The notes beneath the pieces were generated by a model that saw only the letters and a list, made by a program, of their open reading frames with translations, had not been told where the DNA came from and did not search any database. This document shows, piece by piece, positions 51,450 to 52,233 of a stretch of 64,000 nt of DNA. The stretch lies in assembly GCF_006440675.2 (NCBI RefSeq), contig NZ_CP083951.1:3629501-3693500 (forward strand). Direction: 5' to 3'. Source of the stretch: Mesorhizobium sp. B2-8-5. GTDB lineage: Bacteria; Pseudomonadota; Alphaproteobacteria; Rhizobiales; Rhizobiaceae. A program made the translations under genes and the position numbers. Every line of letters begins with the position of its first letter. Position 1 is the stretch's first letter.

Positions 51450-51575
51450 AAAAACAACAACACCCGCCGGGGGAGGAGGTCCGGCGGGTGTCGTTTTGGG
51501 GGTCGATCCTCGGGAGGAGGTGAAGATCGACCTTATTCGCCATTGCCGGGGAGGAGGTCGGCTTTGACGAAATTC
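51450..51575 (-). ncRNA. CCUCCUCCC-motif small RNA, distal unit (cuckoo/CcsR-like)
   Basis: On the minus strand three hairpins expose CCTCCTCCC in their loops: motif copies at 51549-51557 (GCCG/CGGC stem), 51512-51520 (GGTCGATC 51501-51508 with GATCGACC 51525-51532) and 51471-51479 (CACCCGCCGG 51461-51470 with CCGGCGGGTG 51481-51490). The last hairpin is followed by TTGTTGTTTTT, an intrinsic terminator. Cuckoo RNAs with this loop motif are known downstream of DUF1127 genes in alphaproteobacteria (for example CcsR1-4 after ccaF1 in Rhodobacter), and the same order is seen here. Exact ends need mapping. Confidence 0.8.
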
Positions 51576-51654
51576 CTTATCGCCCTTGAGGACGAAAATT
51601 CTTCTCGCCTTTGAGAAGGGGCGAAGCTTTCGAAGACGAACTACGTTCGCTTCG

Positions 51655-51777
51655 GGAACAACGCCCGCCGGGGGAGGAGGTCCGGCGGGCGCCGTTTCAG
51701 TGGTCAACCCTCGGGAGGAGGTGAAGGTTGACCGTATCCGTCAGGGTCGGGGAGGAGGTCGACCCTGGCGAAATTCC
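51655..51777 (-). ncRNA. CCUCCUCCC-motif small RNA, proximal unit (cuckoo/CcsR-like)
   Basis: The unit repeats the design of the distal one. CCTCCTCCC loops lie at 51750-51758 (stem CAGGGTCG 51742-51749 with CGACCCTG 51760-51767), 51713-51721 (GGTCAACC 51702-51709 with GGTTGACC 51726-51733) and 51672-51680 (CGCCCGCCGG 51662-51671 with CCGGCGGGCG 51682-51691). Both units begin just after an AAGGAATTTCG sequence. Stem sequences differ by compensating changes (GGTCAACC/GGTTGACC against GGTCGATC/GATCGACC), which is good evidence for conserved RNA structure. It starts right after the DUF1127 stop codon, so it may be cut out of that mRNA. Confidence 0.82.
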
Positions 51778-51918
51778 TTAGATCGCCTTGCGGGCGACCA
51801 TCTTGATCTCGTCGCGAACGATGCCGAGATCATGGAGCTGGCGGTTCGAAAGCCGACCCAGCTCGGTAACGGTGTCGCGATAGACGCGCCAGTTACGATA
51901 GCTGCGGATCAGGTTCAT
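51778..51918 (-). CDS. DUF1127 (YjiS-like) small protein, 46 aa
   Basis: A 46-aa basic protein beginning MNLIRSYRNWRVYRDTVTEL and ending VARKAI. The core LGRLSNRQLHDLGIVRDEI is the DUF1127 motif. GAAGAGAG lies before the start. In Rhodobacter a DUF1127 protein (CcaF1) binds RNA and influences the maturation of the small RNAs encoded behind it; in Brucella and Agrobacterium such proteins are controlled by the LysR regulator VtlR. The gene directly precedes the proximal CCUCCUCCC RNA. It is a tandem duplicate of the next gene. Confidence 0.92.
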   Translation of the reverse strand: MNLIRSYRNWRVYRDTVTELGRLSNRQLHDLGIVRDEIKMVARKAI

Positions 51919-51969
51919 TGTCGTTACTCTCTTCAAAACTGGTTCGGACCATTTGCGGTCCGAAGCGGA

Positions 51970-52110
51970 TTAGACCGCCTTGCGGGCGACGTAGTGGATG
52001 TCGCTGCGGCTGATGCCGAGGTCGGTCAGTTCACGGTTCGACAGGCGGCTCAGCTCGGAGACGGTGTCCCGGTAGCGGCGCCAGTTGCGGTAGTTGCGGA
52101 TCAGGTTCAT
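51970..52110 (-). CDS. DUF1127 (YjiS-like) small protein, 46 aa, first of the pair
   Basis: MNLIRNYRNWRRYRDTVSEL, then SRLSNRELTDLGISRSDIHY and VARKAV: the same length as its neighbour and about two thirds identical. The protein has about ten Arg in 46 residues and could bind RNA. The start is preceded by CGAGAAG. It is the first gene of the DUF1127-DUF1127-small RNA-small RNA array; its upstream region carries a conspicuous direct repeat. Confidence 0.92.
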   Translation of the reverse strand: MNLIRNYRNWRRYRDTVSELSRLSNRELTDLGISRSDIHYVARKAV

Positions 52111-52210
52111 GGTACTTCTCGTTTCGTCTTTGGTTCGGATCATTCCGTTTGCGTACGAACAGGAAATAGGTGGGATCATATCGGTTTAAAAGTGCCGTTG
52201 GCGCATGGCA

Positions 52211-52233
52211 GCAATGCAAATTGTGCAATGCAA
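52211..52233 (-). promoter_or_regulatory. Direct repeat upstream of the DUF1127 pair, candidate LysR-type site
   Basis: GCAATGCAA occurs twice (52211-52219 and 52225-52233, plus-strand reading) with a 14-bp period, about 100 bp before the first DUF1127 start. A partly dyadic ATTGTGCAAT lies across the pair. DUF1127 genes in Brucella and Agrobacterium are activated by the LysR-type regulator VtlR/LsrB, which makes this a reasonable operator candidate. A TATGAT-like -10 lies about 40 bp closer to the gene. Confidence 0.4.

Follow-up and report, generated by a model that had tools for sequence, protein, structure and literature searches.

The minus strand of the window, which is the whole 64,000-nucleotide stretch of the Mesorhizobium sp. 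B2-8-5 genome that was analysed, contains an upstream LysR-type box and a predicted promoter, followed by two DUF1127 genes, two RNA units, and a GIDA-family gene. DUF1127 gene 1 (51970-52110) and gene 2 (51778-51918) each encode a protein of 46 amino acids, and they match PF06568 with 61.9 and 54.9 bits, respectively (cut-off 23.3). Unit 1 (51656-51776) and unit 2 (51455-51575) match the ar14 model of Rfam (RF02344, threshold 58.8 bits) along its entire length (model positions 1-123 of 123) with 92.9 and 88.1 bits. The hairpins of unit 1 are located at 51772-51737, 51733-51702, and 51696-51657, and those of unit 2 at 51571-51536, 51532-51501, and 51495-51456, all on the minus strand, and each loop displays CCUCCUCCC. 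The AAGGAATTTCG sequence of unit 1 is overlapped by the gene 2 stop codon. A weak T-tract is positioned 3' of unit 1, and GTTGTTGTTTTTGG, the probable terminator of the operon, directly 3' of unit 2. A generic terminator scan, which allowed loops of up to 8 nucleotides, did not list this probable terminator; its single entry was a weak spacer hairpin at 51618-51601. A divergent DUF2157 gene, located on the plus strand from 52334 onwards, shares its intergenic region with the DUF1127 operon.

The arrangement of two DUF1127 genes ahead of two three-hairpin RNA units, which the earlier note had read from the letters of the sequence, is confirmed by PF06568, RF02344, and folding. Loci combining DUF1127 genes with CcsR-like RNAs were named 'CIN1 locus' (PMC10253847, citing Reinkensmeier & Giegerich 2015), and the short DUF1127 genes of the window are linked to the RNAs in the same way. 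The locus is of the CIN1 type, its RNAs belong to the alpha-r14/cuckoo family, and its layout is ordinary for these bacteria.

Folding and covariation of the RNA units

The motif CCTCCTCCC is present at only six positions on both strands of the window, all of them on the minus strand and within the two ar14 units (51471-51479, 51512-51520, 51549-51557, 51672-51680, 51713-51721, and 51750-51758). None of 100 dinucleotide shuffles of the window reached six copies, and the largest number obtained was five. Each unit folds into three hairpins that leave every motif unpaired, with CCUCCUCCC exposed in each loop as is characteristic of ar14, and none of 200 shuffles was equally stable (z -7.3 for unit 1 and -7.8 for unit 2). 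The counts and folds bear out the previous claim of six motif copies, each in a hairpin loop, arranged as two units of three. The paired changes that had been noticed to keep the stems intact are also present, since hairpin 2 contains GGTCAACC/GGTTGACC in unit 1 and GGTCGATC/GATCGACC in unit 2. The complete genome (6.46 Mb) contains 43 copies of CCTCCTCCC, twelve of which belong to four ar14 units, and the other 31 are single and scattered. Inspection by eye identified single hairpins with CCTCCTCCC in the loop, outside any ar14 unit, at C1:1086589 (plus strand, L138) and C1:5034232 (minus strand, L139), which are perhaps lone cuckoo hairpins or terminators.

The 188 three-motif units from the window, loci L035-L063, and loci L142-L221 (the best 80 of 579) comprise 176 distinct sequences, of which 60 were retained after a similarity filter and aligned, all of them chosen to contain the motif. 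With the fold of the window laid on the alignment of these 60 units, two-sided changes occur at 35 of the 38 stem pairs. The number of cells with two-sided changes is 437, compared to a shuffled mean of 130, and 87.7% of the cells pair, compared to a shuffled mean of 71.1; these counts are not independent events, because the structure was derived from one row and the sequences are related. The covariation score was 0.511 in register and no higher than 0.184 once the partners were shifted by 1-3 columns. RNAalifold, when run unaided, recovered hairpins 2 and 3, in which 23 of 24 pairs have two-sided changes. It did not draw hairpin 1, which is the weakest and least well aligned of the three, with 74-76% of its cells paired. 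All three motifs are unpaired in 55 of 59 units of the alignment set (the 60 units minus one containing N), and the first motif is partly paired in the other four. The stem covariation of ar14 units is strong, and the proposal of the earlier note thus survives the refutation that absence of covariation in relatives would have brought.

The previous interpretation of the RNAs as cuckoo/CcsR-like anti-Shine-Dalgarno RNAs located behind DUF1127 genes and having covarying stems holds, but two of its elements do not. The presence of three motif loops in each unit, including one in the terminator hairpin, was considered a possible unusual variant. However, three hairpins with CCUCCUCCC in each have been published for the family (PMC3927594, PMC10746234) and are the RF02344 consensus of ar14/cuckoo RNAs, which rules out the variant. 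The other element was AAGGAATTTCG, with which both units begin, as a processing site. Its TTCG constitutes the 5' arm of stem 1, and exact copies precede 57 of 153 three-motif units in relatives among the best 80 of 579 loci (22 of 75 first units and 35 of 78 later ones), which supports a fixed processing site weakly; as a fixed exact element, AAGGAATTTCG is abandoned. The best count of T within 8 nucleotides after the third motif is 6.2 for last units (n=65) and 4.5 for earlier units (n=79), as determined from loci with at least two exact three-motif units in the window and L142-L221 (the best 80 of 579). The better T-tract of the last units, which the earlier note had missed, is consistent with cuts between the units and a single terminator closing the array.

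Distribution of the locus among relatives

The covariance-model search in relatives that the earlier note had proposed detected RF02344 above the cut-off in 60 of 61 Mesorhizobium genomes (all 61 at E<=0.001) and in 40 of 41 genomes of the family sample. Within the class sample of 289 genomes, a match above the cut-off is present only in the window's own genome, and 15 genomes have any match at E<=0.001. The own genome is counted in each of the three samples, and stricter filters were used in all of them.

Two DUF1127 genes are located directly upstream of the best ar14 match in 30 of 30 loci of relatives, a set that is biased to strong units because the best ar14 match of 30 of the 60 relatives was taken. 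A further 80 loci, 69 of them titled Mesorhizobium, were fetched by DUF1127 protein similarity and are the best 80 of 579 confirmed; they are not a neutral sample of DUF1127 genes, because the query alignment was built from those beside ar14 units. Each of these best 80 of 579 loci has two or more exact motifs in the 1.4 kb behind the gene. An exact three-motif unit follows in 75 of them, and the commonest layout, found in 48, is that of the window, two genes and exactly two three-motif units (the second gene was detected by a simple pattern). Five of the best 80 of 579 loci lack an exact triple, and ar14 scores above the cut-off in all four of them that were scanned with Rfam, L164 having been left out.

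Among the best ar14 matches of 29 other genera of the family, a DUF1127 gene is located ahead of the unit in 18, solely behind it in six, and nowhere within 1.5 kb in five. The other two ar14 copies of the window's genome have no DUF1127 gene within 1.5 kb. One of them (C1:6094455-6094570, minus strand; L127:3456-3571) stands alone and begins approximately 77 nucleotides past a phasin gene (PF09361) on the same strand, and it may thus be a product of the phasin transcript's 3' end. The other (C1:5776312-5776430, plus strand; L126:3313-3431) is located behind a same-strand gene for a LacI-type regulator, and no exact copy of the composite box described below is present there.

The upstream box and the LysR-type regulator gene

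The putative composite LysR-type box TGCACAATTTGCATTGCTGCCAT (52205-52227, minus strand), which the earlier note had not noticed, matches the pattern TGCA-N6-GCAT-N3-TG-N3-T exactly. Its LsrB half, TGCA-N6-GCAT (52227-52214), overlaps the VtlR half, GCAT-N3-TG-N3-T (52217-52205), which is a published consensus (PMC7486931). The predicted promoter CTTTTA-N17-CTATTT (52164-52192, minus strand) has one fixed offset from the box in 59 of the 74 box-bearing loci among the best 80 of 579. A scan with a generic promoter consensus found nothing at 52164-52192. Counted from a predicted start at about 52157, 7 nucleotides after CTATTT, the halves of the box are at -70 to -57 and -60 to -48. The LsrB site TGCA-N6-GCAT of the NfeR1 promoter was reported at -72 to -57 (PMC10746234), and the VtlR box of abcR1 at -61 to -49 (PMC8844928).

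Across 31 Mesorhizobium loci, the window's and those of 30 relatives, conservation is at least 90% in every column of TGCATTGCACAATTTGCATTGCTGCCATGC. The composite box is positioned 109-119 nucleotides ahead of the DUF1127 ATG in 74 of the best 80 of 579 loci, and six of the 80 lack an exact box. Summed over both strands, the 808,692 bases of these best 80 of 579 loci contain 76 composite boxes, two of which are elsewhere. The 6.46-Mb genome has two exact composite boxes, both near DUF1127 genes, and the backward control gave none. The second exact box, at C1:4011861 (L131, C1:4011869), is 65 nucleotides before a DUF1127 gene of 54 amino acids in the opposite orientation, and this gene scores marginally (23.6 bits, cut-off 23.3). 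When up to two mismatches were allowed, the 17-mer TTGCATKGCTGCCATGC had seven matches in the genome, two of them exact and five with two mismatches, and the backward control again had none. Both exact matches and one of the five others are within approximately 210 nucleotides of a DUF1127 gene, and the remaining four of the seven are 240 kb or more from any. The genome contains eight DUF1127 matches at seven places, three of which have the box. Two of these places, L131 with the exact box and L132 (C1:1428458) with two mismatches, are without an ar14 match. VtlR controls three DUF1127 genes in Brucella (PMC12595884), which is also the number of box-bearing DUF1127 places here.

Fourteen of the 29 loci from other genera contain an exact composite box. 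Nine of the fourteen boxes are 112-130 nucleotides ahead of the DUF1127 gene located upstream of the ar14 unit, two (L039, L047) are 124-125 nucleotides before a DUF1127 gene that follows the unit, and three (L037, L042, L054) are on the other strand, before the unit. Nine of the 18 other-genus loci with DUF1127 upstream have no exact box at the expected place, and a composite box was found in four of the eleven loci without DUF1127 upstream. At L054:1447-1469, an exact box on the other strand is located directly before a stand-alone ar14 with no DUF1127 gene nearby, resembling the LsrB/NfeR1 arrangement. Outside the order, a cuckoo locus (G352, L065:1631-1963) has the box 117 nucleotides before a DUF1127 start codon. 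LsrB is described as limited to Rhizobiales (PMC11975290). Judged by its pattern and position, the upstream box is likely a binding site for a regulator of the VtlR/LsrB type.

The genome contains a LysR gene of 298 amino acids (C1:2612987-2613883) that adjoins trxB (C1:2611961). Its product matches 9HH1, the cryo-EM structure of LsrB (PMC11975290), over the full length at 5.8e-142. The LsrB/VtlR name rests on 9HH1 and gene order, because no NCBIfam LysR model among the matches listed reaches its cut-off for this protein. An ar15 (AbcR) RNA (C1:2614660-2614773, plus strand; L230:4161-4274) is located downstream of the LysR gene and scores 49.6 bits (threshold 40). An exact VtlR half-box, GCATGCGTGTGTT, lies approximately 62 nucleotides before ar15 and is a 7-base pattern that is weak alone. 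The same order of trxB-vtlR-abcR is described in PMC7486931. The route to AbcR through RF00519 was rejected, as it led to a suhB-type place and a weak match, at neither of which the frames listed included a LysR gene. In S. meliloti, LsrB does not control the AbcR RNAs, according to PMC7486931, and therefore the circuit differs between genera.

Proposed expression of the locus and known systems

We consider it rather probable that VtlR/LsrB activates a single DUF1127-DUF1127-ar14-ar14 transcript, which is processed into anti-Shine-Dalgarno RNAs. VtlR/LsrB would activate one promoter upstream of DUF1127 gene 1, the 5' part of the transcript would encode the proteins, and the third hairpin of the last unit would terminate transcription. 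The A-rich single strand ahead of each unit may be cut by an endonuclease, probably the RNase E that acts in Rhodobacter, to free RNAs of approximately 115-120 nucleotides. The loops are complementary to GGAGG-type ribosome sites, and the three equivalent CCUCCUCCC loops of each RNA would base-pair with target mRNAs at the Shine-Dalgarno region and prevent their translation. This action of the ar14 RNAs is likely; the three motifs of NfeR1 are redundant on its target mRNAs (PMC7143759, PMC8844928). The CcsR RNAs of Rhodobacter arise from the 3' part of the ccaF1 transcript, and their maturation is carried out by RNase E and the DUF1127 protein CcaF1 (PMC10253847, PMC8625941). The DUF1127 proteins of the window may aid RNA maturation in a similar manner or act separately on sensor kinases. 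According to PMC12501420, the kinase PhoR mediates the action of DUF1127 proteins in Agrobacterium, and YjiS showed no RNA binding; therefore, the role of DUF1127 proteins in RNA maturation is uncertain here.

Autorepression of the DUF1127 leaders by the motif is unlikely, because its longest complement at the ribosome site of gene 1 is GAG in 72 of the best 80 of 579 loci. Both genes of the window also have GAG, and the longest complement overall in the ribosome-site region of the best 80 of 579 loci is 4 nucleotides (GGGA, one locus; G-U pairs not counted). The full complement GGGAGGAGG occurs at 31 genome sites outside ar14, five of which precede reading frames that we judged credible: L105, L106 (no Pfam match), L108 (LacI), L115 (ABC transporter ATPase), and L122 (DUF2147). 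Five sites are too few for a target claim, and a direct target list was rejected.

The ar14 units might instead be small RNA genes in their own right, each driven by a separate promoter as NfeR1 is, their adjacency to DUF1127 being incidental. The stand-alone ar14 copies of the same genome (C1:5776312, C1:6094455), the own promoter of S. meliloti NfeR1 (PMC10746234), and the 11 of 29 other-genus loci with no DUF1127 gene before the best ar14 match agree with this explanation. However, we regard it as improbable, since unit 1 starts at the stop codon of gene 2, the T-tract is poorer in inner than in last units, and DUF1127 precedes the unit in 18 of the 29 loci. The scan also found no promoter-like site for independent genes, which is a weak argument, since it also misses the proposed upstream promoter. 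It is less credible still that the hairpins mainly stabilise or terminate the DUF1127 mRNA, with loops that bind DUF1127 proteins and little action in trans. The binding of RNA by CcaF1, which promotes CcsR maturation in Rhodobacter (PMC10253847), would suit such a role, but the stems vary freely with pairing kept in the 60 units chosen for the motif, and the redundancy of the NfeR1 motifs on mRNA targets also speaks against it. The box could in principle serve the divergent DUF2157 gene, as it is within the intergenic region common to the DUF2157 and DUF1127 genes. The other exact copy and one two-mismatch copy are near DUF1127 elsewhere in the genome, however, and in 74 of the best 80 of 579 loci the box keeps an almost constant spacing from the DUF1127 ATG, which leaves a DUF2157 function very unlikely.

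We favour the VtlR/LsrB-activated operon. If VtlR/LsrB, which is known from symbiosis and host interaction, drives the whole operon, the small-protein and small-RNA branches of this regulator form a single unit, and DUF1127 knockouts at such loci would need careful reading because the RNAs may change too. We tentatively extend this proposal to the whole family, with the balance tilted slightly against it: the CIN1 DUF1127 targets of VtlR/LsrB would be the 5' part of ar14 precursors, and this regulator would control the AbcR, NfeR1, and CIN1 RNAs jointly. If so, these RNAs would make up a common anti-Shine-Dalgarno programme, and part of the effects ascribed to the regulator's DUF1127 targets could stem from the attached RNAs.

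The RNA itself is ordinary in the genus and of a known kind; the value of the locus lies in the promoter link, which alone seems new. CIN1/cuckoo loci (PMC10253847, PMC4504443) likewise combine a short DUF1127 gene and cuckoo hairpins in one locus, and no difference from the window was found at the level tested. The VtlR/LsrB regulon of Brucella, Agrobacterium, and Sinorhizobium similarly has one LysR regulator that governs both DUF1127 genes and small RNAs, with a matching box. The relevant passages of PMC7486931 and PMC12595884 name DUF1127 genes and AbcR RNAs and no attached ar14 RNA, and PMC7486931 raises the question of whether atu1667, a small-protein target, works as a small RNA. The main text of a study of M. 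huakuii small RNAs (PMC5596092) does not contain ar14, RF02344, or DUF1127, and the sections of the literature covered by our search do not tie LsrB/VtlR to a DUF1127-ar14 operon. The alpha-r14 RNAs, including NfeR1 (Smr14C2) of S. meliloti, share with the window's units three hairpins with CCUCCUCCC in all loops, variable covarying stems, a length of approximately 115-120 nucleotides, and an LsrB-type box upstream of the transcription unit. NfeR1 stands alone and has a promoter of its own, whereas the two units of the window are located behind two DUF1127 genes, with the box before the first. The CcaF1-CcsR1-4 operon of R. sphaeroides resembles the locus in its DUF1127 gene, tandem anti-Shine-Dalgarno RNAs at the 3' side, and terminal terminator. 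We take RS0680a to be a CcsR RNA. The Rhodobacter RNAs have two stem loops each (PMC3927594, RS0680a), whereas each unit of the window has three hairpins, and CcaF1-CcsR is expressed from an RpoHI/RpoHII promoter (PMC10253847), whereas the operon of the window is preceded by a box of the LsrB/VtlR type.
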